Source: an uncultured Bacteroidales bacterium (GTDB lineage: Bacteria; Bacteroidota; Bacteroidia; Bacteroidales; FEN-979). From it: a stretch of 46,036 nt of DNA. Position 1 is the first letter of the stretch; the number at the start of each line of letters is the position of its first letter. Location of the stretch: contig CAJAUM010000081.1 of assembly GCA_903945175.1 (NCBI GenBank), positions 1 to 46,036 on the forward strand. The letters are read 5' to 3'. Under the pieces are notes generated by a model that saw only the letters and a program-made list of their open reading frames with translations, had not been told where the DNA came from and searched no databases. Below are positions 1 to 14,635 of this stretch, piece by piece. A program made the position numbers and the translations under genes.

Positions 1-401
1 ATGAATGAGATTGTAACACTACACAAAGATAGGTGGTTTTTCCTGTTTTGATTCAGCATGATGCATTTATGTGGGCAAAATTGGCAGTCTGCAAACACCT
101 ACCTTCATGAACAGCGGCTTTTCCTGCTACGACACCAATAAGCAATATTGGCCTTTAGTGGCCCAATCCAATTAATTTTAACCGGGAACCAGAAAAGGCA
201 CCTCTGATCGGAAATCTGCATAAAGTGGCCCACCATACTGGTAACTTATCACGACAATCAGGCGGCAAGCGTTAGCTGACTTGTGGGCGCGGTTTGATTA
301 ACGCAGGGCAAGCTTCAGCTTTTCGGATATGCATCAACATAGGTCACTAAATCCCTCACTGCAGGCATCCTGTTCTGTATTAGCACCTGCCATCACGAAT
401 G

Positions 402-432
402 AAAAAGCCGGGAGCGATGGCTCACCGGCTTC
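402..432 (-). terminator. Rho-independent terminator of the element operon
   Basis: An 11-bp stem is formed by AAGCCGG (405-411) with CCGGCTT (425-431), and inside it GAGC (412-415) with GCTC (420-423). The loop is GATG and one A (424) is bulged. On the minus strand the stem runs into a T tract (positions 406-402), as expected for an intrinsic terminator of minus-strand transcription coming from the primase-like gene that ends at 592. On the plus strand no T tract follows, so the direction is clear. Confidence 0.75.
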
Positions 433-519
433 TGACTGGTTTCCTTTTCCTACTAATTAAAAGAGAGTATATCAAAATACTTTTTTCTATCGCATGACCA
501 TCTTGGTTAAAAAGTTCCT

Positions 520-589
520 ATGCAAACCATGCAAAGTATGCGAAATGTCCAGCATTAGATCCATTTTGCACACTTTGTACATTTTGCAT
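520..589. repeat. Two facing sets of three 9-bp repeats (iteron-like)
   Basis: Left arm: three adjacent 9-mers, ATGCAAACC (520-528), ATGCAAAGT (529-537) and ATGCGAAAT (538-546). Right arm: three adjacent 9-mers, CATTTTGCA (562-570), CACTTTGTA (571-579) and CATTTTGCA (580-588), which are the same repeat on the other strand. Each arm is 28 bp and the two match at 22 of 28 positions as an inverted repeat, with a 14-bp spacer. Exact 9-bp spacing on both sides looks like ordered protein binding rather than a simple terminator stem. It lies 3 bp beyond the stop codon of the primase/DUF3987 gene, so an iteron-type origin or transfer origin is plausible. Confidence 0.7.
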
Positions 590-591
590 TA

Positions 592-2835
592 CTATATTTT
601 TACATAAGCACCATGTGTGTCGTCGGGATGAACCAACTTCCCAGCCATAATCATCTTGCTGAGATATTTATCAACGGTCCTTGGTTTAATACTTAGTATT
701 TCACCAATCTTGATGGCATCAATCCTTTGAAAATGAATGGGTAAATCTTGAAAAAGCCTCATCGGTTTACCATCAGATAACCCAGATTTTTTTGGTAACC
801 TCATGTAAACACTTATCGCATGTTCCAAATAGACTTCTGCTATAATGGTTGCTTTTTGAAAATCCTGGTCACTGCATATCAGAACAGCATTAGTCTCACG
901 GTTCTCAAATTTTCGTAAAGAAGAAAGTATCATCGCGATACGGTATAAAATCAAACCCAGACGTTTAACTGTGGCGGCTACCTCCTTACTTACAAATAAA
1001 CAGATTTCGTTGAGTTTTTTACTAAAATTCACATCCAGTTTTGTCCATTGTTCCATCGTCAATTCAAATTTACAAGGATGTTCTTCAGTAAACTGGATCA
1101 TTTCGACAACTTCATCCCCCATCGCACTAAAAAATTCAGTAAAATTTGGTTTATCAGGGTCAGGAGCTACACTACGCCACTTGATTTCTTCATCGTATGA
1201 ATAATAGATAAACCTACTATGAGAACCATCTGCGGCAGAGTTTATCAATGCAGGCACTTGATCAGGGGTTCCCGATAAAGCAATAGTTAATCGGGATAAT
1301 TCTATTTCGTTGAATTCGTTGTTTAACTTTCGACCTGAACTTATAGGTTCATGGTGAAAAGCTTTTCTCAAAATTTCAGTGAAGTTACCCCAATCCTGCT
1401 TCAAACAACCGGTTAAGGTATCTATTTCAGTTTCACATATTGTACCCCGTGATTTAGATACTTTTAAAAACTGAATAATAGCAGCAGAACTTGAATTACC
1501 GGGGATATAATGCACTCTGGGGAGAGATTTGTTTACGACTTCACAAACCACTCTTGAATTTGGATCAATTCCATTTGCATCGGTAGTTGCAGGTCTTAAT
1601 GCATCACGAAAAGAAATACCCGAAGTATTGCTTTCTGCCAATAGTTTCTGATGATACTTAGCTGCAAGCATTTTTGCGTACTTTAAAATACTCTTATCGG
1701 AAGCAGGGGGGCCAACTATCATGCAAAACAGGTTGGCAAAACTGAGCTGATTATCGTAAGTTCCAGAAACTCCTGGTAAACATCCGCTAAGTATCGTAAG
1801 AGCGCTCGTTATATAAATATCACGCTGACGATTTGTTTTAAAAGCGCCGCACCCAATATCAAGGAGTCTGGGGAGATCACTATAAAACTCAGCGGGAATG
1901 GTAGGTGTAGGTTTCTTCATCGTATTGCCTTGAGATTCCTCATCTTCATTGGTGCCGATTTCATCTTCCGGCTGATGATCTCCAAATTTTACATGTTCAT
2001 CTGAATGATGGTTATAAGCACTTCTGACGGTTGTAAGAAGTTCTCCTTCATGCAGATCGAATTGCGCTTTTATCATGGAAAGGGTCTCATGTTCTGGGAT
2101 GCCTTCGCGATTACAATTCGATGCTAACAAATAGATGTAGTTATTGCGGTTACCCTCAGAATAAGTACCCTTCTGATTTGTGAACCAAATACAACCCTGG
2201 AACTTATATTTGAAATCAAATTTCTCCCAACGGTCAGTATTTGATTGTGGTATAGGGGGAGCGGTTGCTTTTTGTTGGACAGACTGCTCTTGAACAGAAA
2301 TCTGAAAAATCTTTGAGTCCTTATTTACATATAGGTCAGGATCATCTGAGAAGAAGCATAGTCTGGTAATATCCTTGCATTTTGGATCACAAGGCAGACT
2401 CAACTCTTTCTCATAGAATTCCTGCACCTGACGATAGGCGAATTCATGGAGGTCATGACCACTATTAACCTCCACAAATACCTTTAGACCTTTTCCTGGG
2501 CTTAGAAAATAAGCTCGAGTAAAATCCAGAGTTTTGAGTTTTTCACGAGCAGGATCAACCATCGTTGTATCAACTTTGTCGAAATCCAAACAAAGGATTC
2601 TGCTATATTCTTGAAAACAATCACTCTTTCTACCGCCCTCAAATCTCCCTGAGGGTGTGAAAGCGGGCAAGTTTTTTTTCTTCGTCGCATAGGAATCTTT
2701 TAATCCTGCGTTCTGAAGAGCTCTAAGTGTGTTAATTTCACCTTTAAATCTGCCGGCTTGGATTTGACCCAAAACATCGTATAACGGCAGATTTTCACTA
2801 ACTTCATTGAAGTTCTTAAAAACAGTTACTATCAT
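592..2835 (-). CDS. BT4734-like primase domain plus DUF3987 protein
   Basis: This 747-aa protein is of a kind common on Bacteroidetes mobile elements. The N-terminal part (about 1-185) fits the BT4734/VirE_N family, a branch of the archaeo-eukaryotic primase superfamily: an acidic pair in LCLDFD (D84, D86), the strand-turn SPGKGLK (112-118) and an arginine in DITRLCF (R158). A middle segment around 217-260 with EGNRNNYIYLLA resembles primase C-terminal helper domains. The rest (about 315-700) fits DUF3987, an ATPase-like domain with a P-loop-like GPPASDKS. The usual P-loop glycine is Asp380 here, so ATP binding may be altered. The start overlaps the stop of the HTH gene by four bases (ATGA), implying translational coupling. 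The likely role is priming or replication of the excised element; this is inferred from domains. Confidence 0.75.
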   Translation of the reverse strand: MIVTVFKNFNEVSENLPLYDVLGQIQAGRFKGEINTLRALQNAGLKDSYATKKKNLPAFTPSGRFEGGRKSDCFQEYSRILCLDFDKVDTTMVDPAREKLKTLDFTRAYFLSPGKGLKVFVEVNSGHDLHEFAYRQVQEFYEKELSLPCDPKCKDITRLCFFSDDPDLYVNKDSKIFQISVQEQSVQQKATAPPIPQSNTDRWEKFDFKYKFQGCIWFTNQKGTYSEGNRNNYIYLLASNCNREGIPEHETLSMIKAQFDLHEGELLTTVRSAYNHHSDEHVKFGDHQPEDEIGTNEDEESQGNTMKKPTPTIPAEFYSDLPRLLDIGCGAFKTNRQRDIYITSALTILSGCLPGVSGTYDNQLSFANLFCMIVGPPASDKSILKYAKMLAAKYHQKLLAESNTSGISFRDALRPATTDANGIDPNSRVVCEVVNKSLPRVHYIPGNSSSAAIIQFLKVSKSRGTICETEIDTLTGCLKQDWGNFTEILRKAFHHEPISSGRKLNNEFNEIELSRLTIALSGTPDQVPALINSAADGSHSRFIYYSYDEEIKWRSVAPDPDKPNFTEFFSAMGDEVVEMIQFTEEHPCKFELTMEQWTKLDVNFSKKLNEICLFVSKEVAATVKRLGLILYRIAMILSSLRKFENRETNAVLICSDQDFQKATIIAEVYLEHAISVYMRLPKKSGLSDGKPMRLFQDLPIHFQRIDAIKIGEILSIKPRTVDKYLSKMIMAGKLVHPDDTHGAYVKI

Positions 2836-3125
2836 GACCGTTCAGATTTAAGATGGAAAGGCTCCATATAGTGGCTATTCAGAAGTTTTTCGATATCGGA
2901 GGCACGGTAATATATCTTGCCACCGATCTGCGAGAAACCGATTAAGCCTTTGTCGCGATAATCCTGAGCAAGCCTTCTGGAGATTTTTAAGACTGACTGA
3001 AACTCCTCATTGTCCAACCAATTTTCATTGAGTGGGTAAACTTGTTTCAACCTTGATGATGACTGCCGGACTTTTTCGACCTCGGCAGGTGATGTCTGCA
3101 TTTGCTGTTGGTAATTTTGTTCCAT
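2832..3125 (-). CDS. Helix-turn-helix protein, excisionase-like
   Basis: A 97-aa protein with a MerR/excisionase-type winged helix-turn-helix (HTH_17 family) in its second half. The recognisable core runs from WLDNEEFQSVLKISRRLAQ through DKGLIGFSQIGGKIYYRASD to IEKLL, about residues 36-83. The first 30 residues are Gln- and Ser-rich and probably disordered. Proteins of this type sit beside integrases on Bacteroidetes elements and act as recombination directionality factors or local regulators; which applies here is unknown. It overlaps the following primase-like gene by 4 bp. A -7-like box (minus-strand TATTTTTG, 3181-3188) and a large palindrome (3211-3239) lie upstream and could provide a promoter and an operator. 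Confidence 0.7.
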   Translation of the reverse strand: MEQNYQQQMQTSPAEVEKVRQSSSRLKQVYPLNENWLDNEEFQSVLKISRRLAQDYRDKGLIGFSQIGGKIYYRASDIEKLLNSHYMEPFHLKSERS

Positions 3126-3267: not shown

Positions 3268-4134
3268 TTATCTATCGATATTATTCTTTAAATCAACTGC
3301 ATATTTTACTAACTTACTAAAATTAACATGCCAAAAAGCTGCATCAGCAGCAGTAAATAGAGCCAGCGCATTTCTGTATGATAGTGGCTGGAAATTAGCC
3401 ATTTTATTTCTTTTCCGTACGGTAAGGAATGAATTTGCCATGGTTTTATAATACTTTCCTATCGATTTTTCAGGAATTGAAATTATCTCAGCATCTTGCA
3501 AAATGCGGAAGAAGCAAGCAAGTTGTTCGAGGGTCAAGCTTGTAGGAATTTTAAATGCATTTTTATCTTTCTTTTCCACCTGAAGTTGGCTGATTACAGA
3601 CTGCCTGATTAAATAGTCAACATTTTTAATTATTTCCCCGATACTATAGGTCCAACAAGCAACATACAACAGCATGGCTTCCTGAATTCTTTCTTGGATA
3701 TATTCAACATCACCAACCAAATTTGTCTCACTCATACATATCGCTTCAATGTTCGTAAAGTATTCATACGGATACTGTTGCAATTGACCATCAGAGTTGA
3801 AACGTTTTATTGTTCCTTCTGAAACATAAGATAACATTTCTTCCAAGCCAAGGTAAATATCGGTTAAATACTCCTCTTTCAAATCGTCAGATATATTGCT
3901 TAAACTGTCCGTTAAGCCACTAAAACCTTCATCACATATTGAATCAATATCTTTTGAAAATGCCTTTAAATTGAGTTTATTTAGAGAATGAATAAAATAT
4001 CTTTGCTCTTGCTCTCCTTCTTTGAAATCAACAGTAAAGCGAGCTTTAAAAGTTTTCGAATGCGAAATAAGTCCACTGAAAAATTCTTCAAATTGTGCTG
4101 AGTACTGTGTTTCAGAAAATGTAGTTGATTCCAT
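3268..4134 (-). CDS. Hypothetical protein of the mobile element
   Basis: I do not recognise this 288-aa protein. It has no signal peptide or convincing membrane helix and is rich in alternating acidic and hydrophobic residues, suggesting an all-helical cytosolic protein. The C-terminal third (from about residue 195, SLTLEQLACFFRIL, to RNALALFTAADAAFW) looks like a compact helical domain of the sort seen in accessory proteins next to Bacteroidetes integrases; a distant link to RteC-like excision regulators is possible but unproven. The start lies one base after the integrase stop codon, so the two are almost certainly co-transcribed and a role in integration, excision or its control is the natural guess. 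Confidence 0.55.
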   Translation of the reverse strand: MESTTFSETQYSAQFEEFFSGLISHSKTFKARFTVDFKEGEQEQRYFIHSLNKLNLKAFSKDIDSICDEGFSGLTDSLSNISDDLKEEYLTDIYLGLEEMLSYVSEGTIKRFNSDGQLQQYPYEYFTNIEAICMSETNLVGDVEYIQERIQEAMLLYVACWTYSIGEIIKNVDYLIRQSVISQLQVEKKDKNAFKIPTSLTLEQLACFFRILQDAEIISIPEKSIGKYYKTMANSFLTVRKRNKMANFQPLSYRNALALFTAADAAFWHVNFSKLVKYAVDLKNNIDR

Positions 4135-4135
4135 A

Positions 4136-5353
4136 TTATGATATAATTAATTGATTTGCAGCATCTATAATATCATCATCAAAGCTATCCAAATAAATTT
4201 GGGTTGTTTTACTGTCTTCATGGCCAAGCCCCTCCGAGATAACGCTAAGCGGCACATTGTTTTCTTTTGCCACAGTAGCCCAAGTATGACGAGCCACGCC
4301 TCCTGTCAAATGTGCTTTGATCTCACATTTTGCTGCCAGGTCCTTGAGCGCGTTGTTGTATAGTTTACGTTCATTTTCTTCATCTTTTCGCTGGTCTTCC
4401 AACGATACACGTTTGATGATCGGAAAAATGAAATCATCCGGGGTCATGCTTTCTTTTAAATAAAATGCAAGAATGGAACTTGCCTCCGAGGTCAGCTTGA
4501 TAGTATAGTTCTTGCCGGTTTTGGCACGTTTATAGTTTATTCTACCATTAACGATGTTTGAAACTTTAAGCTGAGCGATATCGGCGAAATTCATTCCCCT
4601 GTTATAAAAACTGAATAAAAAAAAGTTTCGGGCCTGCCACATTTTAGAATCCTTCTCCAACGCTGCATTTTTAATCGTGCTGATATCTTTCTTTTTAATA
4701 GCACGTTTTACAGTTTTGGTTTCCTTAATGGAGTAGTTCTCGAAAGGGTAAAGTTCCTTTTTAACGATCCCCGCTTTAATGGCTCGGTTATATATAGCGC
4801 GTATGGTGCGCAGATAAAAGCTCAGGCCATTTTTGGAATTATCTTTTGCCATGTGCTTTGACTCAAGACTCTTTAAAAGTGAATACGTTATGTCTTCAAA
4901 TGTCAAATCATCTTTTTCCGTGTACCGCTTCAAAAACCCCCATGCTTGTTCATAAACGGATGCATTCCCCAGCTTGTGAGCTTCTTTAAATTCACTGATT
5001 AATTGTTCAGTGAACGATTTAAAAGAAATGTGCTGTTCTTTTTTTTCCAGTTTACGTTTTAACTGCGTGGGAGATAGTTTTCTCAGTTCTCCTATCCGAT
5101 CAAAATACTCCAAGAGTTCATCAATCTCCAATCGCTTCTTCAACAATGTATTATTGATCCTGGCAAGATTTTTATACTTCTTACAGTTAGCATTAATGCT
5201 TTGAGAATCAGCATCCCAATGTTCGGTTAGGATAGCATACTCCAGATTTAGATATACCGGAATTCGCTTGTGATTGATACGCAACATGAGCGGTCTTGAG
5301 CCATCCTTGAGGAGACGCCTGGTGTCAATAACAATTTTCGAGTGGGGTATCAT
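4136..5353 (-). CDS. Tyrosine recombinase (integrase) of integrative element
   Basis: A 405-aa phage-type integrase of the Bacteroidetes conjugative or mobilizable element kind. It has an N-terminal arm-binding-like segment, a SAM-like core-binding domain (about 90-200) and a C-terminal catalytic domain. Visible catalytic residues are Arg252 (FYNRGMNFADIA), Lys in the KRAKTGK hairpin, Arg355 (VARHTWAT), His378 (EGLGHED) and the nucleophile Tyr387 (QIYLDSF). The first histidine of the HxxR box is Gly352, a position that also varies in relatives. The frame is open to an ATG at 5422, but a -7-type promoter box at 5381-5388 lies inside that extension, so I choose the ATG at 5353, giving MIPHSKIVIDTRR. 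It lies beyond the 3' end of tRNA-Gly, its probable insertion site. Confidence 0.9.
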   Translation of the reverse strand: MIPHSKIVIDTRRLLKDGSRPLMLRINHKRIPVYLNLEYAILTEHWDADSQSINANCKKYKNLARINNTLLKKRLEIDELLEYFDRIGELRKLSPTQLKRKLEKKEQHISFKSFTEQLISEFKEAHKLGNASVYEQAWGFLKRYTEKDDLTFEDITYSLLKSLESKHMAKDNSKNGLSFYLRTIRAIYNRAIKAGIVKKELYPFENYSIKETKTVKRAIKKKDISTIKNAALEKDSKMWQARNFFLFSFYNRGMNFADIAQLKVSNIVNGRINYKRAKTGKNYTIKLTSEASSILAFYLKESMTPDDFIFPIIKRVSLEDQRKDEENERKLYNNALKDLAAKCEIKAHLTGGVARHTWATVAKENNVPLSVISEGLGHEDSKTTQIYLDSFDDDIIDAANQLIIS

Positions 5354-5361
5354 AAGAAAAG

Positions 5362-5381
5362 TGCCTAACTTTATGCCTAAC
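5362..5381. repeat. Direct repeat TGCCTAAC x2, possible integrase arm sites
   Basis: TGCCTAAC occurs at 5362-5369 and again at 5374-5381, 12 bp apart, just upstream of the integrase start and about 120 bp from the tRNA end. The related 9-mer GCCTAACTT (5363-5371) appears again at 3146-3154 ahead of the HTH gene. Tyrosine integrases often bind short direct repeats near the attachment site, so these are candidate arm-type sites. The repeats also flank the putative int promoter and could be regulatory. Confidence 0.35.
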
Positions 5382-5388
5382 AAAGATA
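5381..5388 (-). promoter_or_regulatory. Putative -7 box of the integrase gene
   Basis: The minus strand reads TATCTTTG, an exact match to TAnnTTTG, 27 bp ahead of the ATG at 5353. No clear TTG is seen at the -33 position. The box falls within the longest open frame of the integrase and therefore argues for the shorter start. Confidence 0.45.
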
Positions 5389-5430
5389 GCACTTTTAAGC
5401 ATTCATTCACTTTTCTTTGCACAATCTCCT

Positions 5431-5476
5431 AAAAACAAAAACTCCGGAGTGCCTTTATTTATTAAGCAATCCGGAG
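5431..5476 (-). terminator. Terminator downstream of tRNA-Gly
   Basis: CTCCGGA (5442-5448) and TCCGGAG (5470-5476) form a 7-bp stem, extended by GCC/TGC-type pairing towards an AT-rich loop. On the minus strand the stem is followed by TTTTTGTTTTTA. This looks like the terminator of the tRNA transcript and separates it from the integrase promoter. It could be part of the element end or of the original chromosome. Confidence 0.6.
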
Positions 5477-5497
5477 CAATTAAGTGCATTCTGTTTG

Positions 5498-5570
5498 AGC
5501 GGTAAATGGGGATCGAACCCACGACCCTCAGCTTGGGAAGCTGATGCTCTACCATCTGAGCTACTACCGC
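5498..5570 (-). tRNA. tRNA-Gly (anticodon CCC)
   Basis: A complete cloverleaf is seen on the minus strand. The acceptor stem is GCGGTAG with TTACCGC (one G-T pair), the D arm is GCTC/GAGC, the anticodon arm is TCAGC/GCTGA with loop TTCCCAA, so the anticodon is CCC for glycine codon GGG. The T arm is GTGGG/CCCAT with loop TTCGATC. The discriminator base is T at 5498 and no CCA is encoded. A -7 box (TAAATTTG, 5582-5589) lies 12 bp upstream and a terminator lies downstream. It marks the border between chromosome and mobile element. Confidence 0.95.
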
Positions 5571-5581
5571 GTTTGGTTGTG

Positions 5582-5589
5582 CAAATTTA
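5582..5589 (-). promoter_or_regulatory. Putative -7 box of tRNA-Gly
   Basis: The minus strand reads TAAATTTG, matching TAnnTTTG, 12 bp before the mature tRNA 5' end. It overlaps the stop codon of the aldehyde dehydrogenase gene (5587-5589). The -33 position (5609-5611) reads TGG rather than TTG. Confidence 0.45.
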
Positions 5590-7041
5590 ACAATTATTTT
5601 TTCCCTTCCCACACATTTCATCAATCTCATTGATGGTAAGATGTTCATCACAACAAAATGCATCACCCCGCTGATGCTCACTGCAAAAATTGATTTTCCG
5701 GTAAGCAATACGCTGAATGTTAAGAAGATGACGTACAGAAATGTTGTCGGTTGTAAAGTTCTTCCCACCCGATCCGCAGGCCAGGGTCATCGAAGGGGTC
5801 AGCCCATTGTACAACCCGCCCAACGCACCTTGCGATGATGGGGTATTCACCACAATGCGTCCGGCGTTCAGCTCATGCGCAAAGTAACGGATCTTGGCAT
5901 CATCGTTCGAGAAGATGCTGACGGTATGTCCCAGACCACCATGCTCATTGATGCGCCTGCACATTGCAATGCCCTCATCAAAACTGGCCACTTCATAGAA
6001 AGCAAGAATGGGAGCAAGAACTTCGAGTGACAAAGGCCATTGGATGCCTACCTGGTGTTTCTCCAACTCTGCAATGAGCAGGGTTGTTTCGGGCGGGACT
6101 GAAATCCCCGCCATCCTGGCAATTTCGGTGGCAGCTTTTCCGATCACCTCCGGATTCATGCTGTGCTGCGTGGTGTTGATCGCAAATTTTCCGACCTTTT
6201 CAATCTCATCAGGCTTCAGGAAACAGGCGCCCTGCTTCACAAATTCATCCCGAACCTGCTGCGCATTGTATTGTGAGACGACCACGGCCTGCTCGCTGGC
6301 ACAAATAGTTCCATTATCAAAAAGCTTTGAAAGCAAGATCTGATTGACCGCAAAAGCCACATCCGCAGTTTTGCCGATATACACCGGCACATTCCCGGGT
6401 CCCACCCCGATAGCGGGGTTACCTGAATGATAGGCTGCCCTTACCAGGCTCACAGAACCAGTAGCCAGAACCAAAGCAATGCGCTTGTGGCTCATAAAGG
6501 CGAGAACCTGTTCACGCGTGGCACGGGGGATCCATTGGATGCAGTGTTCCGGGGCCCCTGCCATCCGGGCTGCCTCATAACAGAGCCTTGCAGCCTCAAT
6601 CGTCGATTTTCGCGCAGCGCCATGGGGAAAAATGATGATAGGGTTACGCGATTTCATGGCGATAAGAATCTTAAAAAGCGCTGTCGAGGTGGGATTGGTG
6701 ATGGGAGTCACCGCAAAGATGGGTCCCATCGGGCGCGCAATTTCGACAATCTGATTTTCCAGATCCTCAGATATGACACCTACCGAGAGAACTTTTTTAA
6801 TATCCCTGTACACAAACCTGGTGGCAATGATATTCTTTATAACCTTATCGCGAAGTATCCCGATCCCTGTTTCATTAAACGCCATCTCCGCAAGTTTCCA
6901 CCGATTGTTGAATCCCTCACGGTAAACTGCATGAACAACAATATCGGTCTCCTCCTGATTTAATTTTCCAAAGGAATCTGCGGCACCAAGCGACCGCTGA
7001 ACCGTTTCCTCCACAAAGAATTCACTCTTGTATTTCTCCAC
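5587..7041 (-). CDS. CoA-acylating acetaldehyde dehydrogenase
   Basis: A 484-aa aldehyde dehydrogenase of the acylating type, closest in pattern to the N-terminal half of AdhE; it interconverts acetyl-CoA and acetaldehyde with NADH (EC 1.2.1.10). Signs are TPITNPTSTALFKILIAMKS for the coenzyme site and NGTICASEQ with nucleophile Cys247, followed by an AdhE-like C-terminal region. No iron alcohol dehydrogenase domain follows, so this is a stand-alone enzyme. The last 35 residues, after HLLNIQRIAYRK, carry five cysteines (including an adjacent pair), an unusual tail. It has a -7-like box upstream (7064-7071). Its place next to tRNA-Gly puts it on the chromosomal side of the element. Substrate range beyond acetaldehyde cannot be told. 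Confidence 0.85.
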   Translation of the reverse strand: MEKYKSEFFVEETVQRSLGAADSFGKLNQEETDIVVHAVYREGFNNRWKLAEMAFNETGIGILRDKVIKNIIATRFVYRDIKKVLSVGVISEDLENQIVEIARPMGPIFAVTPITNPTSTALFKILIAMKSRNPIIIFPHGAARKSTIEAARLCYEAARMAGAPEHCIQWIPRATREQVLAFMSHKRIALVLATGSVSLVRAAYHSGNPAIGVGPGNVPVYIGKTADVAFAVNQILLSKLFDNGTICASEQAVVVSQYNAQQVRDEFVKQGACFLKPDEIEKVGKFAINTTQHSMNPEVIGKAATEIARMAGISVPPETTLLIAELEKHQVGIQWPLSLEVLAPILAFYEVASFDEGIAMCRRINEHGGLGHTVSIFSNDDAKIRYFAHELNAGRIVVNTPSSQGALGGLYNGLTPSMTLACGSGGKNFTTDNISVRHLLNIQRIAYRKINFCSEHQRGDAFCCDEHLTINEIDEMCGKGKNNC

Positions 7042-7063
7042 GACAAACCAGGTATTAACAGGT

Positions 7064-7071
7064 CAAATGTA
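7064..7071 (-). promoter_or_regulatory. Putative -7 box of the aldehyde dehydrogenase
   Basis: The minus strand reads TACATTTG, matching TAnnTTTG, 22 bp ahead of the ATG at 7041. No good TTG is seen 19-21 bp further upstream. Confidence 0.4.
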
Positions 7072-7126
7072 CATGATAATCGGGTTCATGCTAGAATTTC
7101 ATTCCATGAAATATTCAAATATATAA

Positions 7127-9004
7127 TTACGGGGATGATTCCCGATCGCTGAGCTCCATCCAGCGGTCGGTCATTAATTCGATTTCCGGGAGAATTCCTG
7201 CCCATCGCTCTGAACGCTGCGTAAGGTCCGTCGGATTTAAACTCCCTGACTGAAGTTCAGCTTCGATGGCCGATTTTTCAGCCTCCAGCATGGCAATCTC
7301 CTTTTCAAGCCTTTCGAGCTCGCGTTTTTCCTTGTATGATAACTTATTTGTAACAGGAGCGACCTGCTTTTCAGACTCAGTTTTTCTTCCTGTTACGCGT
7401 TTTTGAAGTTGTTCCCTCTTTTTCAGGTCATCACTCCAGTTCTTATATTGGGTGTAATTTCCCGGGAAATCCTTGATCATGGCATCTCCATCAAATACAA
7501 AAAGATGATCAACGATTTTATCAAGAAAATATCGGTCGTGGGTCACGACAACCACACATCCGCTGAAGGCGGCAAGGTACTCCTCGAGCACGTTAAGTGT
7601 TAAAATGTCAAGGTCATTGGTAGGCTCATCCAGGATGAGGAAATTCGGGCTCCGCATAAGTACCGTAACAAGGTACAATCTGCGCCTCTCCCCTCCGCTC
7701 AATTTATAAACCTGTTGAAAATGCGAAGGATATGGGAACATGAAATAATTCAGAAAAGCCGCCGCCGAGATGGTGTCGCCATTGCTGAGTTTGACCACCT
7801 CTGCAATTTCCTTCACCACATCGATCACCTTGGTTTGTTCATCAAACACCAGTCCCTGCTGCTTGTAGTAACCATATTGTATGGTCTCCCCTTTTTGGAT
7901 GTGTCCCTTCTGCGGCCTGATTTTACCAGTGATAATATCAAGAAAGGTAGATTTTCCCGATCCGTTTTTCCCGACGATCCCGACCTTTTCGTTGCGCTTG
8001 AAGGTATAGGTAAATCCCTTCAGAATCTGCAGCTCCCCCCATTTAAAAGAGATGTCGTTGATCTCAAGGATCTTGTTCCCCATGCGTGATCCCTCGATGT
8101 TCAGTGTAAGCCGCTCCTCATAAACCTTGCTGGTGGCCTTTTCCTGTAAATCAAAAAAACTGTCAATCCTGGCTTTGGCCTTTGTTGTGCGGGCCTTGGG
8201 CATGCGACGCATCCATTCCTGCTCTGTACGCATCAGGTTTTGTGCCCGCTCCACCTCTTTATTCTGATTGTCGAGCCTTTCAGCCTGCTTTTCGAGAAAG
8301 TAGGAATAATTTCCCCGGTATTTGTATATGGCGGCATGTTCCATTTCAAGCACCTCATCACAAACACGGTCGAGAAAGTAACGGTCGTGGGTGACCATCA
8401 GTAAGGTTATGGTCGATTTTGAGAGGTATTCTTCCAGCCATTCAATCATCTCCACATCCAGGTGGTTGGTTGGTTCATCAAGGATTAGAAATGTCGGTTC
8501 AGTGATGAGTACTTTGGCAAGGGCGACACGTTTTCGCTGTCCCCCGCTCAACGTCTCGATCCGCTGATCAAGATCGGGTAATTTTAGTTGTGTAAGAATT
8601 TGTTTCACCCGTGTTTCATACTCCCACCCCTGTATGGCATCCATTTGTCCGATCGCATGCTGAATCTCCTCCTTGTTGGTCCCCTTGATGACGTGCTCAT
8701 AATTAAGGATGGCCTTCTGGATTTCATTGGAATGTGAATACACCTCCTCAAATACGGTTCGGGAGGGGTCAAGTTCAGGTTCCTGCTTCAGATATTCGAA
8801 TGAATCGCGGTTAAACAGGGTCACAGTCCCTGCATCACATGGTTCAATCCCGGCAATGATATTCAACAGGCTGGTTTTGCCTGCGCCATTGCGTGCAATA
8901 AGGGCAACTTTATGCGATTGGCTCAGAACAAATGAGATATTTTCGAACAGGTTCTTTTCGCCATAGGAACGGGCAAGGTTTTCAACTTGAAGTACGGTCG
9001 ACAT
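7127..9004 (-). CDS. ABC-F family ATPase (Uup-like)
   Basis: A 625-aa soluble protein with two ABC ATPase domains and no membrane segment, the ABC-F layout. Domain 1 has ARNGAGKTSLL, the signature LSGGQRKRVALA and ILDEPTNHLD. Domain 2 has GKNGSGKSTFLD, LSGGERRRLYL and ILDEPTNDLD. Between them is the basic linker with MRRMPKARTTKAKARID. The C-terminal 80 residues form a charged coiled coil (YKEKRELERLEKEIAMLEAE), as in Uup. ABC-F proteins act on the ribosome; the Uup branch is a housekeeping type, so antibiotic resistance is not implied. The ATG at 9004 (MSTVLQVENLARSYG) is preferred to the one at 9025, because the -7 box at 9023-9030 overlaps the upstream codon. Confidence 0.9.
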   Translation of the reverse strand: MSTVLQVENLARSYGEKNLFENISFVLSQSHKVALIARNGAGKTSLLNIIAGIEPCDAGTVTLFNRDSFEYLKQEPELDPSRTVFEEVYSHSNEIQKAILNYEHVIKGTNKEEIQHAIGQMDAIQGWEYETRVKQILTQLKLPDLDQRIETLSGGQRKRVALAKVLITEPTFLILDEPTNHLDVEMIEWLEEYLSKSTITLLMVTHDRYFLDRVCDEVLEMEHAAIYKYRGNYSYFLEKQAERLDNQNKEVERAQNLMRTEQEWMRRMPKARTTKAKARIDSFFDLQEKATSKVYEERLTLNIEGSRMGNKILEINDISFKWGELQILKGFTYTFKRNEKVGIVGKNGSGKSTFLDIITGKIRPQKGHIQKGETIQYGYYKQQGLVFDEQTKVIDVVKEIAEVVKLSNGDTISAAAFLNYFMFPYPSHFQQVYKLSGGERRRLYLVTVLMRSPNFLILDEPTNDLDILTLNVLEEYLAAFSGCVVVVTHDRYFLDKIVDHLFVFDGDAMIKDFPGNYTQYKNWSDDLKKREQLQKRVTGRKTESEKQVAPVTNKLSYKEKRELERLEKEIAMLEAEKSAIEAELQSGSLNPTDLTQRSERWAGILPEIELMTDRWMELSDRESSP

Positions 9005-9022
9005 GCAATTTTTGGGAAATGA

Positions 9023-9030
9023 CAAAGGTA
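9023..9030 (-). promoter_or_regulatory. Putative -7 box of the ABC-F gene
   Basis: The minus strand reads TACCTTTG, a full match to TAnnTTTG. A start site about 7 bp downstream would leave a leader of roughly 12 nt before the ATG at 9004. No clear -33 TTG. Confidence 0.5.
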
Positions 9031-9144
9031 GGCAATTAAATCAATCCGGATGTTGCATCGCGGATTACCAATACTGCGTAAGCATAAAATTGTAAATCGC
9101 AAATCGTACATCGTATTGTGGATTTGATTAAATTTACCAAAAAA

Positions 9145-9708
9145 ATGCCCATCCACAGTTATCTTGTTATACTGGCTTTCATCATCATTGGATTGATTTT
9201 AACAATCCAGATGTTTGCTATGCAGCAGCATGGATCTGAAAAGCTGGGAAAACCCTCCATCGCTAAATTTTATTTTTACTCCGGAAAAATCACACTCTTT
9301 ACCACATGGGCTTTTTTCATTACCAAAGCCATCTTCCCGGAAATCGGATATATTCGCGTACCTCCTTCCCTTTCATGGATTGCTGTTGGTCTGCTCTGGT
9401 TAGGAGCGGTCATTGTGTCACTGGCATTCAGAGATCTCGGGCCATCGCTTAAAGTTGGATTGCCGAAGCAGGAGACGCAGTTGAAAACCAAAGGCATTTA
9501 TCGGTTTAGCCGAAATCCGATTTATGTTGGCGTCATTTTAATCGCCATAGCATCCTGTCTCTACTTTCCTGATTTAATAAACATCTCATTTACAATTTAT
9601 GGGATTTTAATCCATCATAAAATTATCAGAGGAGAAGAACGATTTTTGTCCAGGCGCTTTGGTGATGAATGGAGCGCCTACTGTGCGCATGTCAGACGAT
9701 ATTTATAA
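9145..9708 (+). CDS. Isoprenylcysteine methyltransferase-like membrane protein
   Basis: A 187-aa membrane protein of the ICMT/phospholipid methyltransferase superfamily. Four or five hydrophobic segments are visible, starting with HSYLVILAFIIIGLILTIQM. The C-terminal part carries the family's SAM-binding pattern: YRFSRNPIYVGVIL, then HHKIIRGEERFLSRRFG, with the conserved R-NP-Y and paired Glu. Bacterial members methylate unknown small or lipid substrates; the true substrate here is not known. A GTG at 9118 is in frame, but the ATG at 9145 gives a normal N-terminus. It is followed after 23 bp by the histidine kinase gene on the same strand. Confidence 0.75.
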   Translation: MPIHSYLVILAFIIIGLILTIQMFAMQQHGSEKLGKPSIAKFYFYSGKITLFTTWAFFITKAIFPEIGYIRVPPSLSWIAVGLLWLGAVIVSLAFRDLGPSLKVGLPKQETQLKTKGIYRFSRNPIYVGVILIAIASCLYFPDLINISFTIYGILIHHKIIRGEERFLSRRFGDEWSAYCAHVRRYL

Positions 9709-9731
9709 AGAGCATCATTAACCTTTCATTG

Positions 9732-12515
9732 ATGACCAATCTATCAGCAGAATTCCTAAAATTAAAACCCATTTTTGACGTAGTCCCTTTCGGCATAATA
9801 ATCACCGGACAGGATAAAAGGATACACCTTATCAATTCTGCTGGACTCACGTTGTTTGGTTTCACCAATGACGATGACCTGCTGTTTACCCCCTCATCCA
9901 ACTGGATTCGTGAAATGGAGGAAGATGATGGCCCTGTTTCTGAGCAGGAGATCAAACCAGGTCGTTCAGAATGCATACTGGTTAATAAATCGGGTAGAAA
10001 GATTTCAATTTTAAAATATGCCGGCCCGGTTCAAATTGGAGAGGAGACCTTTATTTTTGAATCCTTTATGGATCTTTCGGAAAGAAAAATAAGAATGGGG
10101 GCTCTTTCAGAAACCAAAAGGCAATTTGAATCGCTGGTCAACAACCTGCCGGGCATCGCTTTTCGTTGCCGCAATGATCGTAACTGGACGATCGAATTTG
10201 TCAGTGACGGCTGTTTTGACCTCACAGGTTATTTACCTGATGATCTGATTGGAAACAAGAATATATCGTACAATGACATTATTGATAAAGCGGATCAGGA
10301 GAGAGTATGGGCAGAGATTCAACAATGGCTTACGCAGCGCAAACCGTACACTGTTGAATATCGAATCAAATGTTCCGACGAAAAGATGAAATGGGTATGG
10401 GAAAAGGGGAAAGGGATATATGATGAAGCCGGTGAACTGATACATATCGAGGGATTTATTTCCGACATTACAGATCAAAAAAACACCGAATTGATTCAGA
10501 GTTTTTTATTTGAGGTATCAAAAACTTCGCTGACATCGAACAACATTGATGAAGTTTTTAAATCTATCCATACGAACCTGAGGCAGATCATCAACGTCGA
10601 AAATTTCTACATTGCCATGTACGATAAGCAATCTGATACGATTTCACTGCCCTATCAGATAGACTCGAATGACCGATTCGCGGCATTTCCGGCTGGTAAA
10701 ACAATCACCGGTTATGTAATCAAGACCAAGGCCCCGCTTCTTGCAACCAAACCTGTCATCGATGAATTGAACCGGACCGGCCAGATCCAGATTGTCGGAA
10801 CGCCTGCAAAGGTGTGGATGGGCGTGCCAATGATTGTTGACAATGATGTAATTGGCGTCATTGCTGTTCAAAGTTACACAGATCCTGAGCAATTTACATT
10901 CAGGGAATTTGAATTGCTCAAGTTTCTTGCCGAACAAATTGCAGTTGTTGTTTCCAAAAAAAATTCGGAAGATTTATTACAGAAAGAAAAGGCGCTTCTT
11001 GATCAGCTCTTCGAGGGGAGTACCGAGGCAATTATCATGATCGACAACAATGGACTTGTCATTAAATTAAATACAGAATTCACGAAGCTTTACGGATATT
11101 CTCCAGCTGAAATTCTTGACAGGAACATCGATGACCTGATCTCTGACCCATCAAACAAAGCTGAATCTGTTAAAATCACGCAAGATATACTGCAAGGAAT
11201 CGTAAGCGAAATTGAGACCATGCGAAAGCATAAGGACGGCCACCTCATTGATGTTTCGATTCTTGTCACACCCATCACCCTTGGAACCCGGATCGTAGGG
11301 GCCTATGGAATTTATCGCGACATTACTGACCGGAAGAATATTGAAAAAAAACTTATTGCAGCCAAAGAGAGGGCCGAAGAATCCGACAAGCTGAAATCAG
11401 CCTTTCTTTCAAATATGTCGCATGAAATCCGGACCCCGATGAATGCAATCCTTGGATTTTCAACGCTGCTATCAGATCCCGCTGCCTCAGATTTGGAAGT
11501 GGAGGAATTCATCAGCATTATAAAAGACCGGGGAAATGACCTTCTCAGAATTATTGACGATATTATTGATGTCGCAAAAATTGAATCGGGACAAATCAAA
11601 GTTGAAGTGAATGATTGCAAGATCAATGTCATGCTTTCAAATTTGTTAGTCACATTAAATGGTCTGAAAAGAAAAACAAATAAAACCCACGTTTTACTTA
11701 ATTGTCTGCCCGGGAATACGGATAAAGATTTTTCGATCCGTACTGACGGGAACCGTTTGCGCCAGATCTTGACCAACCTGATCGAAAATGCCCTTAAGTT
11801 TACCCACGAAGGATTTGTTGAATTTGGGTATACGTTTAAAAATAAAGAATCTGAGCCGTTCATCGAATTTTTTGTGCGCGATACAGGCATTGGTATACCC
11901 CAGGAGATGCATGACATTATTTTTGAAAGGTTTCGCCAGGTTGATGACACAAATACAAGAAAATACGGAGGGACAGGGTTGGGCCTTACTATTTCAAAAA
12001 ATCTGGTCAAATTATTGGGCGGTGAAATTCAACTTTTGTCGGAACATGGAAAGGGAACTACTTTTTATGTTTTGTTTCCACTTCAGTTATCCAAACCAAT
12101 GCTTCCTGAGTCGACCAAATCTGTTTATCCCTTGCCCTCGACGCATCTCTGGTCAGAAAAAAACATTCTTGTCGTTGAAGACGAAGATTCAAATTTCATG
12201 CTTCTTGACCGCATTCTGAAAAGAACCGGGGCAAAACTCATTTGGGCAAAAAACGGCCTTGATGCCATTGAATATTGTAACAACCAGCATTTTGACCTTG
12301 TTCTCATGGATATCAGAATGCCGGGAATGGATGGATACGAAGCCACCCAGGCCATTAAAAAGAATCACAAACACCTTCCCATCATTGCTCAAACAGCTTA
12401 TGCCCTGAAGGGCGAACGTGAAAACAGCCTTGCCGCAGGCTGTGATAATTATATTTCGAAGCCCATTGACGCGAAAGAATTGCTGGCGATGCTTGAAAAA
12501 TATATAAACACTTGA
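9732..12515 (+). CDS. Soluble hybrid histidine kinase (PAS-PAS-GAF-PAS-HK-REC)
   Basis: A 927-aa sensor kinase without membrane segments, so probably cytosolic. Domains in order: PAS (about 10-115), PAS with PAC (130-250), GAF (260-420), PAS (430-545), HisKA with His564 in SNMSHEIRTP, HATPase with the N box NLIENALKF, G1 DTGIGIP and G2 GGTGLGLTISK (about 670-790), and a C-terminal receiver with Asp860 in LVLMDIRMPGMDGYE and Lys in YISKPID. The start at 9732 (MTNLSAEFLKLK) is chosen because the upstream frame overlaps the preceding gene. No output regulator lies nearby, so the phosphorelay probably passes to a distant phosphotransfer protein. The signal is unknown; three PAS domains and a GAF suggest a small-molecule or redox cue. 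Confidence 0.9.
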   Translation: MTNLSAEFLKLKPIFDVVPFGIIITGQDKRIHLINSAGLTLFGFTNDDDLLFTPSSNWIREMEEDDGPVSEQEIKPGRSECILVNKSGRKISILKYAGPVQIGEETFIFESFMDLSERKIRMGALSETKRQFESLVNNLPGIAFRCRNDRNWTIEFVSDGCFDLTGYLPDDLIGNKNISYNDIIDKADQERVWAEIQQWLTQRKPYTVEYRIKCSDEKMKWVWEKGKGIYDEAGELIHIEGFISDITDQKNTELIQSFLFEVSKTSLTSNNIDEVFKSIHTNLRQIINVENFYIAMYDKQSDTISLPYQIDSNDRFAAFPAGKTITGYVIKTKAPLLATKPVIDELNRTGQIQIVGTPAKVWMGVPMIVDNDVIGVIAVQSYTDPEQFTFREFELLKFLAEQIAVVVSKKNSEDLLQKEKALLDQLFEGSTEAIIMIDNNGLVIKLNTEFTKLYGYSPAEILDRNIDDLISDPSNKAESVKITQDILQGIVSEIETMRKHKDGHLIDVSILVTPITLGTRIVGAYGIYRDITDRKNIEKKLIAAKERAEESDKLKSAFLSNMSHEIRTPMNAILGFSTLLSDPAASDLEVEEFISIIKDRGNDLLRIIDDIIDVAKIESGQIKVEVNDCKINVMLSNLLVTLNGLKRKTNKTHVLLNCLPGNTDKDFSIRTDGNRLRQILTNLIENALKFTHEGFVEFGYTFKNKESEPFIEFFVRDTGIGIPQEMHDIIFERFRQVDDTNTRKYGGTGLGLTISKNLVKLLGGEIQLLSEHGKGTTFYVLFPLQLSKPMLPESTKSVYPLPSTHLWSEKNILVVEDEDSNFMLLDRILKRTGAKLIWAKNGLDAIEYCNNQHFDLVLMDIRMPGMDGYEATQAIKKNHKHLPIIAQTAYALKGERENSLAAGCDNYISKPIDAKELLAMLEKYINT

Positions 12516-12544
12516 TTACAAAATCAAAACTAAATAAAAATCCC

Positions 12545-14635
12545 ATGAGAAAAGCAATTTTGTTTCTTTTGACCCTTCTGATGACCGGGTTTTATTCCTG
12601 CAAACCGACAGAGAAAAAAACAGAAGATACTCCGCTGATCGAGAAACCAACCATTGAGATCAAAAGCGACCTTATGACTCCTGAAGTGCTATGGAGCTTC
12701 GGCAGGTTAAGTGAGCCTGAATTATCACCCGACCAAAAAACCATATTGTACGGGGTGACCTATTACGACATTGCCCAAAATAAAGGAAACCGCGAGTTGT
12801 ATTCCATTGGAGCAGACGGACAAAACTACCAGCGCATTACGACCACAAAATTAAGCGAGTACCAGGCCATGTGGACTCCGGATGGCAAGAAAATCGTCTT
12901 TATGTCGGCTGAAACGGGTGCCATGCAGGTATGGGAAATGGATCCCGACGGGAACAACCGAAAACAGATCACCCAAATTGAAAATGGGATCAATGGGTTT
13001 AAATACTCCCCGGATATGAAGAAAATTTTGTTTACGGCCGATGTATACCCCGAAAAACAGTTTAAAGACCTTTATCAAGGCCTTCCGAAAGCAAGCGGAA
13101 GGATATACAATGACCTGATGTACAGGCACTGGGACACCTGGGTACAGGCCTACAGTCATGTTTTTGTTGCTGACCTCACCGGCGAAAAAGTCACCACAGG
13201 CACTGACATCATGCTCAACGAAGCCTGGGAATCCCCTTTGGCTCCCTTCGGTGGCATGGAGCAGATCAACTGGAGCCCCGACAGCAAGGTCATTGCCTAT
13301 ACCAGCAGAAAAAAGAGCGGTGCTGAATATGCAAAATCAACCAATTCAGATATTTATCTCTATGACCTCGCCGGAACGAAAACAATTAACCTGAGTGAGG
13401 GAATGCTGGGCTATGATGTTGCCCCCATTTTTTCGCCTGATGGCAAAAAGATAGCCTGGCAAAGTATGGAACGCGACGGATATGAGTCGGATAAGAACAG
13501 GCTGTTTGTGTACGATTTCGACACCAAATCAAAAATTGATTTTACGAAGGACTTTGATCAGAATGCTGAAAATTTAGCTTGGTCCGGAGACAATAAATCA
13601 ATTTATTTCATCAGTGATTATCATGCCACGGATGAAATTTACCGTCTTGACCTGGCTGATGGGAAGATCATGAAAATTACGGCTGGAATACATAACTATA
13701 CCGGAGTCATCCCTACTGGTGATAAGCTGATCGCCTCCCGCGTTTCGATGTCGAAGCCTGCGGAATTGTATTCAGTCGATCCTGTAACCGGGAAGGACAC
13801 ACCCCTTACCACCACCAACAAGGATGTGCTTGACAAACTCACCATGGCGCCCATTAAACAGCGCTGGATCAAGACAACGGACAACAAAGATATGCACACC
13901 TGGATCATCTATCCGCCTCATTTTGATTCGACCAAAAAATATCCCACCCTGCTGTACTGCGAAGGGGGGCCTCAAAGTACAGTCAGCCAGTTCTGGTCCT
14001 ATCGCTGGAACTTCCAGATGATGGCAGCCAACGGATATATCGTGGTGGCGCCTAACCGGCGCGGACTGCCGGGTTTCGGACAGGCCTGGAATGAACAGAT
14101 CAGTGGGGATTATGGCGGACAGAACATGAAAGATTATTTAAGTGCGATCGATGCCATGTCAAAAGAGCCCTATGTTGACAATGACAAGCTGGGTTGTATT
14201 GGAGCCAGTTATGGCGGTTTTTCTGTGTATTGGCTCGCCGGAAATCACAACAAGCGGTTCAAGGCATTTATAGCCCATGACGGGATGTTCAACCTGGAGG
14301 CCCAATATCTGGAGACAGAAGAGATGTGGTTTGTAAACTGGGATCTGGGCGGACCATTTTGGGATAAAAACAATAAAATCGCACAGCGCTCCTATGCCAA
14401 CAGTCCGCACCGTTTCGTCCAGAATTGGGATGCCCCTATCCTTTGCATCCATGGCGAGCTCGACTACCGCATTGTTGCAACGCAAGGCATGCAGGCCTTC
14501 AATGCCGCTGTTTTAAGGGGTATTCCTGCAGAGTTCCTCTATTTTCCTGATGAAAACCATTGGGTACTTAAACCACAGAATGGCGTTTTATGGCAGCGCA
14601 CATTCTACAGCTGGCTTGATAAATGGCTTAAATAG
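12545..14635 (+). CDS. S9 family peptidase, lipoprotein (prolyl oligopeptidase fold)
   Basis: A 696-aa secreted peptidase of the dipeptidyl-peptidase IV/acylaminoacyl-peptidase type. The N-terminus (MRKAILFLLTLLMTGFYSC) is a signal peptide ending in a probable lipobox cysteine, so it is likely anchored in the envelope. Residues about 40-430 form a WD40-like beta-propeller with repeated SPD.K.I..(T/S) motifs. The C-terminal alpha/beta-hydrolase domain has the triad Ser555 (GASYGGF), Asp640 (GELDYRI) and His672 (DENHWVL). It probably trims peptides from the N-terminus in the periplasm or at the surface. The start follows the kinase stop by 29 bp; an in-frame upstream codon at 12512 would spoil the signal peptide. 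Confidence 0.9.
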   Translation: MRKAILFLLTLLMTGFYSCKPTEKKTEDTPLIEKPTIEIKSDLMTPEVLWSFGRLSEPELSPDQKTILYGVTYYDIAQNKGNRELYSIGADGQNYQRITTTKLSEYQAMWTPDGKKIVFMSAETGAMQVWEMDPDGNNRKQITQIENGINGFKYSPDMKKILFTADVYPEKQFKDLYQGLPKASGRIYNDLMYRHWDTWVQAYSHVFVADLTGEKVTTGTDIMLNEAWESPLAPFGGMEQINWSPDSKVIAYTSRKKSGAEYAKSTNSDIYLYDLAGTKTINLSEGMLGYDVAPIFSPDGKKIAWQSMERDGYESDKNRLFVYDFDTKSKIDFTKDFDQNAENLAWSGDNKSIYFISDYHATDEIYRLDLADGKIMKITAGIHNYTGVIPTGDKLIASRVSMSKPAELYSVDPVTGKDTPLTTTNKDVLDKLTMAPIKQRWIKTTDNKDMHTWIIYPPHFDSTKKYPTLLYCEGGPQSTVSQFWSYRWNFQMMAANGYIVVAPNRRGLPGFGQAWNEQISGDYGGQNMKDYLSAIDAMSKEPYVDNDKLGCIGASYGGFSVYWLAGNHNKRFKAFIAHDGMFNLEAQYLETEEMWFVNWDLGGPFWDKNNKIAQRSYANSPHRFVQNWDAPILCIHGELDYRIVATQGMQAFNAAVLRGIPAEFLYFPDENHWVLKPQNGVLWQRTFYSWLDKWLK

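Follow-up and report, generated by a model that had tools for sequence, protein, structure and literature searches.

Phased 9-bp repeats facing each other behind a primase-helicase gene, probable origin iterons of integrated elements in Bacteroidota

Introduction

What are two facing triplets of 9-bp repeats for, when they stand at the very end of the primase-helicase gene of an integrated element? The question arises from a contig of an uncultured Bacteroidales bacterium, for which a first-pass annotation had proposed a replication or transfer origin. It bears on a process that, according to the excerpted text of a 2017 review (PMC5704250), no study had ever addressed: how mobilizable elements replicate once excised. 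Here we describe the locus, follow the repeats through related loci and weigh what they may do.

Results

The element and its integration site

The window, i.e. the whole stretch of 46,036 nucleotides analysed here, is an entire contig (C81) of a 4.4-Mb draft genome in 155 contigs (G000; 98% complete). Beside a tRNA-Gly gene, a minus-strand operon encodes, in this order, an integrase, a 288-aa protein, an HTH_17 protein and a primase-helicase. The features of the region are as follows.

399-433, minus strand: terminator-like hairpin and T-run, beyond the array (RNA folding)
520-547, minus strand: distal arm of the array; units 520-528, 529-537 and 538-546, in exact 9-bp steps
548-561, no strand: spacer of 14 bp between the facing arms
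562-589, plus strand: proximal arm of the array; units 562-570, 571-579 and 580-588; 2 bp from the primase stop codon
592-2835, minus strand: primase-helicase, 747 aa; BT4734-like_N AEP domain, DUF3987 ATPase and C-terminal region (profile matches)
1825-2094, minus strand: interdomain linker segment of the primase gene; no recognisable array copy (16 of 27, p 0.66)
2832-3125, minus strand: small HTH_17 or excisionase-like protein
3268-4134, minus strand: 288-aa protein with no Pfam family, between the integrase and HTH genes
4136-5422, minus strand: tyrosine integrase with Arm-DNA-bind_5 and SAM_5 domains
5494-5545, minus strand: probable att core, made of the 3' half of tRNA-Gly plus 3 nt; 52/52 repeat on contig C77, 4861-4912
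5497-5570, minus strand: tRNA-Gly (ccc), the integration target

The primase-helicase matches the BT4734-like_N profile with E 3.1e-29 and DUF3987 with E 4.5e-46. The N-terminal part hits a CRISPR-associated PrimPol model in 10 of 11 proteins, the window protein scoring 53 bits for a cut-off of 200. Its C-terminal region is read here as a helix-turn-helix, several HTH and winged-helix families matching it weakly. The Walker A motif of the window protein reads GPPASDKS, at a place where GK is found in all 10 aligned relatives. Given this motif, the helicase of the window may be altered or inactive.

The 52-bp tRNA repeat on C77, a contig of the same genome, has flanks that differ on both sides from those of the C81 copy. 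It is probably the distal boundary of an island with an unassembled central part. Alternatively, it may belong to a second island at the same tRNA-Gly. An end overlap between C77 and C81 was sought and the contigs do not join. On the far side of the att repeat, C77 (L218) carries at 4913-13857 what we take to be a RadC-like protein and plasmid- or ICE-like small ORFs, possibly the distal part of the same island. The cargo end of the element lies outside the window's contig. Two same-family relatives whose integrases are similar (55% and 49%) are also located at tRNA-Gly(ccc). In ten relatives, exact matches of at least 13 gave no convincing att repeat.

Two facing arms at the end of the primase gene

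The annotated layout, three 9-bp units per side in opposite orientation and 14 bp apart, was confirmed by recounting and by shuffles. Arms 520-547 and 562-589 are complementary at 22 of 28 positions and form the top-scoring 28-nt inverted repeat, with a loop of at most 30, across all 46,036 bases. By comparison, dinucleotide shuffling yielded 15-18 matches for window 1-592 (100 shuffles) and no more than 20 for the whole window (20 shuffles). Against the consensus ATGCAAAAT, the units of the left arm match at 7, 8 and 8 of 9 positions, and those of the right arm at 9, 6 and 8. The distance to the primase gene had been given as 3 bp. The stop codon occupies 592-594 on the minus strand, and the gap is therefore 2 bp.

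Phased arrays recur after homologous primase genes

Arrays phased by 9 bp, or by 8 bp in some relatives, stand directly after the stop codon of many BT4734 primase genes across Bacteroidota. This was seen in two sets of loci. The first comprised 53 primase loci, to which 20 were added; 72 of the 73 were long enough (150 nt), and near relatives were kept. Controls were 135 intergenic regions from the same loci, and the score was the best 18-comparison match per lag. Of one group of 17 places, L033, L036 and L037 were excluded from the counts. In L033 and L036 the gene or the downstream DNA is cut off, L037 was left out without a test, and L107 is without downstream DNA.

At lag 9, z exceeded 2.5 in 17 of 72 primase ends versus 3 of 135 controls. 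The corresponding figures were 15/72 versus 1/135 at lag 18 and 14/72 versus 6/135 at lag 8, and lag 10 gave no excess (3/72 versus 6/135). Mann-Whitney tests on this set gave p 1.5e-11 for lags 8-10 and p 1.3e-4 for inverted repeats. Under a looser criterion (z > 2 for either a period or an inverted repeat), 51 of 72 primase ends qualified, yet so did 41 of 135 controls.

The second set was selected by protein similarity alone and consisted of the best 80 of 557 loci, from named Bacteroidota genomes, plus 3 viral contigs. After two short loci were dropped, 81 of these 83 had 150 nt after the stop. Removal of 12 near-duplicates left 69 non-redundant relatives (66 Bacteroidota genome loci and the 3 viral contigs). 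The set shares a few places with the first (e.g. L227, L230 and L271) and is therefore not fully independent. Lag 9 exceeded z 2.5 in 26 of the 69 loci. Strict 9-bp matches were found directly after the stop in 11/69 loci, versus 41 of 5118 other 150-nt bins.

The motif TTTGCA, or its reverse complement TGCAAA, occurs exactly and at least twice after the stop in 30/69 loci, for a mean of 4.1 and a maximum of 8 in shuffles. The following 150 nt contain it this often in 4 loci, counted only where enough DNA is available, and the 150 nt upstream of the ORF in 1 locus, among loci with 400 nt upstream. Within 200 nt after the stop, same-strand TTTGCA pairs are spaced by 9 bp 49 times, by 8 bp 5 times and by 10 bp once. 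These 49 pairs fall within 13,800 nt, compared with 132 in 908,174 nt elsewhere. Phased TTTGCA chains follow the stop in 32 of the 69 loci and are absent from 37, other unit types being left out of this count. With both strands considered and one mismatch allowed, the chains (32 of 70 regions, including the window) start at a median of 13.5 nt past the stop. Their steps measure 9 bp 100 times, 8 bp 19 times and 10 bp 3 times.

The sequence of the array differs between lineages. TTTGCA is found beside the closest relatives, and the phased 8-9-bp units of others include ATCGGAGTT, TCGGATTTG, GTCGGGTTT and CATCTTACC. Facing pairs of units were also found, with TGATAGTAA facing CTATCA, CGTAGGGCA facing CCCTACG and ATCTGCAAC facing GTTGCAGAT. 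Inspection by eye of 12 full-length or nearest relatives revealed TTTGCA-type units in 10, a related palindrome in L177 and another type in L180.

Five BT4734-class primase loci lie on one 5.3-Mb contig of genome G297. By eye, L074, L077, L082 and L091 share CGTAGG-type facing arrays with an AT-rich centre, and L071 has the related GCGTACAG type. In VapE-type relatives (e.g. L072, L073, L075, L089 and L090), 8-bp and 9-bp periodicities are about equal (mean z 1.33 and 1.29).

The check proposed with the first-pass annotation thus gave a positive result, 9-bp phasing being more frequent behind homologous primase genes than elsewhere. Given this enrichment, an iteron-like, cooperatively bound site appears to be the best reading of the repeats, in line with the cooperative binding that the annotation had suggested from their phase and layout.

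A second array inside the primase gene of relatives

Of the 132 further 9-bp TTTGCA pairs beyond the stop-codon region, counted on both strands so that palindromic units appear twice, 117 (summed from a histogram) lie 1.2-1.5 kb before the stop. This place corresponds to the variable linker that joins the primase domain to DUF3987, and the DNA there reads TTT GCA NNN repeated. In-gene chains of at least two TTTGCA are present in 54/69 relatives; 28/69 have chains both in the gene and after the stop, and 11/69 have neither. All 50 forward in-gene pairs are in the TTT GCA frame. Of 119 FA dipeptides in the linker, 105 are written TTT GCA, where 35.4 would be expected from the codon usage of each gene; outside the linker, the same genes use it for 25 of 116. 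Fisher's test gives p 1.3e-26, a figure inflated by kinship of the genes and obtained with linker bounds set post hoc. Codon choice in the linker points to selection on DNA.

The in-gene array also follows the type of the external one. The external 6-mers of a locus recur as phased pairs in its own gene at 31 of 55 loci, whereas 30 synonymous-codon shuffles averaged 5.3 such loci and never exceeded 11. An exact version for the 20 loci with non-TTTGCA units is weak (3/20 own genes versus 31/1080 other genes). At five loci with units other than TTTGCA, the linker and the external array contain the same locus-specific unit in inverted orientation, and the encoded peptides are unrelated. L028, with ATCGGAGTT three times in its external array, has TCC GAT GAA TCC GAT GAA TCC GAT in its linker. 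The linker of L098 agrees with the external array of this locus at 24 of 27 positions and encodes KTAKTAKTA; that of L092 agrees with its own at 19 of 24, with a frame-shifting 8-bp step (GALSALVP). Own-array matches in the linker reach 19 of 27 in L030, 22 of 27 in L237 and 27 of 27 in L277 and L294. Compared with all 89 linkers, those of L028, L092, L098 and L237 are the best for their own external array, with p between 0.011 and 0.022 when L030 is included. For L030, one other linker equals or beats its own (p 0.022), which comes first among the 87 with unlike external arrays.

Over the 62 of 89 DUF3987-class loci that have an external array, this matching test gave a combined p of 0.0027, compared with 0.99 and 0.95 for control gene segments. 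Individually, 9 of the 62 loci reached p <= 0.05, 8 of them with the in-gene copy inverted with respect to the external array, and 53 were non-significant in a test that has little power for TTTGCA types. In L180, L186, L299, L301 and L302, which have unlike units, the test found no in-gene match. The VapE class gave a combined p of 0.56 (15/27 loci), and no in-gene partner array was found where it was looked for in VapE-class loci. In the DUF3987 branch, an array of matching unit is commonly present inside the gene, at the boundary between primase and helicase domains. Where units are non-palindromic, the in-gene and external arrays are mutually inverted.

The window's own linker shows no match above chance (16 of 27, p 0.66), and both arms stand after the stop instead. 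L182, whose ATPase part is 46% identical to the window in a tblastn match, shows on visual inspection the same arrangement of 3+3 facing units past the stop. Together with the inverted in-gene pairs, this suggests that the facing geometry may be the constant, the arms being 14 bp apart in the window and about 1.3 kb apart in many relatives.

Which part of the protein could read the repeats

In the diverse first set, repeat sequence correlates with similarity of the C-terminal region (Mantel r 0.50), and to an equal degree with that of an ATPase segment. No C-terminal correlation is left among close orthologues (raw r 0.11 versus 0.16 for control DNA), where only the N-terminal segment stands out. 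A C-terminal domain acting as sole reader was rejected on these two grounds, and this domain is therefore kept as a candidate reader. Searches of solved structures gave no relative.

Cargo, plasmids and phage contigs

Restriction-modification proteins are encoded downstream of the primase in 8 of 12 relatives. They comprise type III-like Mod and Res, type I HsdM, a C5 methylase and an Eco57I-type enzyme. The islands concerned are L024, L175, L176, L178, L179/L197, L084, L088 and L181, and several types occur on orthologous islands. Further downstream, proteins of about 690 aa were Piwi/Argonaute in four of four cases tested, on contigs of G726, G527, G007 and G459. They are candidate members of the islands.

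Extrachromosomal forms were also considered. The ends of the human-fecal 'Bacteriophage sp.' entries MT837259, MT838604, MT838077, MT839686 and MT838458 do not overlap, and these contigs, which were rejected as packaged circles, resemble chromosome fragments. Matches in a plasmid collection (OY72xxxx) were set aside as well: one that has a gene table carries chromosomal-looking genes, and the rest were assessed from name and size alone. Two Cardinium plasmids, pTM2, a Flavobacterium plasmid, pCACC737_3 and phage phi46:1 showed no lag 8-10 at z 2.5 in the 200 nt after their VapE/BT4734 gene. The circular Apilactobacillus kunkeei plasmid OX335235.1 (L308) has facing TGACATT repeats about 11 bp apart at 2217-2416, after a VapE-like gene (lag-11 z 2.7).

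Discussion

Function of the repeats

We regard the repeats as probable iterons, forming a replication origin for the primase-helicase that the element itself encodes. Against this reading stand the Walker A motif of the window protein and the missing in-gene array of its gene, the relatives in which TTTGCA chains are absent after the stop (37/69) or at both places (11/69), the 53 non-significant loci of the matching test, the loss of the C-terminal correlation among orthologues, and the two Cardinium plasmids, whose VapE-type genes are followed by no array. Enrichment of the phasing suggests, as their most likely purpose, a start point for copying the mobile element after it has left the chromosome, and the replication part of the origin first proposed is thereby retained. 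The transfer part is not. An oriT often contains inverted repeats, and there are elements that have an oriT alone and no relaxase, so to this extent an oriT of a mobilizable element would fit the locus. The relaxase family PF03432, however, has no match in the window's genome. Four of the 16 genomes searched, mostly drafts, have a match, each on a contig other than the primase contigs, and the repeats go with the primase. We rejected the oriT reading on these grounds and judge it highly improbable.

A regulatory role deserves more attention, although we regard it as unlikely. The primase or the HTH protein would then bind the arrays as an autoregulatory or copy-control operator, switching the primase operon or a downstream cargo gene, or handcuffing two copies of the element, and replication would not start there. 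The next downstream ORF begins 58-426 nt past the stop in the 12 relatives listed, and one further ORF, in L175, overlaps the stop; the array could therefore be near the promoter of that ORF. Facing, matched arrays would also suit looping, and intragenic binding sites could act as roadblocks. In the window, however, positions 1-591 contain no ORF of at least 50 aa and a terminator-like hairpin lies beyond the array. More generally, the arrays are at the end of the gene, not at its promoter (30/69 loci after the stop versus 1 locus upstream).

Sites for the recombination proteins, that is arm-type integrase or excisionase sites acting in excision, are a very doubtful explanation. The window integrase does carry Arm-DNA-bind_5, and in NBU1 of Bacteroides excision requires an extensive stretch of DNA beyond int, according to the excerpt of the review cited above (PMC5704250). 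Yet in the window 4.9 kb separate the array from the probable att core, the arrays stay with the primase even when integrases are unlike (22-27% identity for L024, L028 and L030), and the in-gene partner array sits in the primase itself. An RNA hairpin serving as a terminator or mRNA 3' stabiliser has as little probability as an oriT. As RNA, the array region folds well on both strands (z -4.6 and -5.8; -26 kcal/mol with z -4.6 on the minus strand), and this is due to the inverted layout. A separate terminator-like hairpin is predicted at 433-399, a place not listed by a terminator consensus scan, so that the array itself need not be a terminator. In addition, the chain lies on one strand only in 12 of the 32 regions with TTTGCA chains, and neither a strict 9-bp phase nor an in-gene partner about 1.3 kb away would be expected of a hairpin. 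The terminator reading was therefore rejected.

A proposed mechanism

If the repeats are origin iterons, the integrase and the HTH protein would first excise the element at tRNA-Gly. The C-terminal DNA-binding domain of the primase-helicase would bind the units, and two facing arrays would seat two oligomers in opposite orientation. These oligomers would open neighbouring AT-rich DNA and load the helicase, and the primase domain would start synthesis. The excised circle would be copied before transfer or re-integration, the primase-helicase being most likely a self-sufficient initiator.

The in-gene arrays lead us to favour, by a small degree of belief, a two-site origin built around the gene of its own initiator. 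One site would be the linker array, written in codons, and the other the inverted array of the same unit after the stop. Linker residues such as FAKFAK, SDESDESD, KTAKTAKTA and GALSALVP would then be dictated by DNA binding, the pair would co-evolve into a lineage-specific origin, and the window would represent a derived or alternative form. If this is true, each lineage of defence-carrying islands would have its own origin specificity.

Beyond this locus, a family of Bacteroidota islands can be recognised by a recurrent origin-like signature, which in several of them has restriction-modification genes next to it. The signature makes island replication directly testable and suggests protein-repeat pairings. 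The in-gene array appears to be a case of a codon sequence held by a DNA site, not by the protein. The signature could also yield replicons for Bacteroidota.

Comparison with known systems

DUF3987 is a predicted helicase, and origin recognition by C-terminal WH domains has been suggested in related families; the word 'iteron' is absent from that study (PMC5862659). In the open-licence papers searched we found none joining DUF3987, primase and iteron, or VapE, iteron and Bacteroid. PICMI satellites of Vibrionaceae have an integrase, an AlpA/HTH_17 protein (PF12728) and a DUF3987 primase involved in replication. Their integration site is adjacent to fis, they rely on a helper phage, and the word iteron does not appear in the main text of the paper (PMC10803314). 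The window likewise has PF00589, PF12728 and PF13148 in one operon. Unlike PICMI, its probable att core lies in tRNA-Gly, not next to fis, and the cargo of its relatives is restriction-modification. PLE of Vibrio cholerae is a satellite with its own initiator and an iteron origin required for replication, but this initiator is RepA_N and not a primase-helicase, as far as the excerpted source describes it (PMC7145576). The MobP-type relaxase (PF03432) of an NBU-type mobilizable element was not found in G000.

The origin of phage lambda sits in the interdomain linker of O, which is not a primase-helicase, and we know of no second matched inverted array after the O gene. That the origin lies inside this initiator gene is stated in the excerpt of PMC6022878. 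The relatives resemble lambda in their intragenic array (54/69), whereas the window gene has no iterons between its domains.

The closest precedents for an iteron site just after the gene of an initiator helicase are SaPI Rep and SCCmec Cch2. SaPI Rep is an initiator helicase, and short iterons immediately behind its gene are recognised by its C-terminal domain. In SCCmec, three short iterons stand just after the helicase gene and the isolated C-terminal domain of Cch2 binds the putative origin (both from the excerpted text of PMC7581432). A downstream iteron site had been thought not generally described for small integrative elements of this kind; this does not hold, since SaPIs have one and SCCmec is proposed to have one according to the same text. 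What the window shares with both is a replication gene of an integrative element that is followed at once, in non-coding DNA, by several short direct repeats. It differs from SaPI in its protein, a BT4734-type primase fused to DUF3987, and in its units of 9 bp in strict phase. SaPI has a helper-phage life cycle, which is hypothetical for the window element. In SCCmec, Cch2 and the primase are separate proteins, the iterons are 5 nt long and the excerpt of PMC7581432 mentions no in-gene partner. An iteron site beside the initiator gene is therefore already known from SaPI and SCCmec, and it is the matching array inside the gene that sets the relatives of the window gene apart from these precedents as described there.
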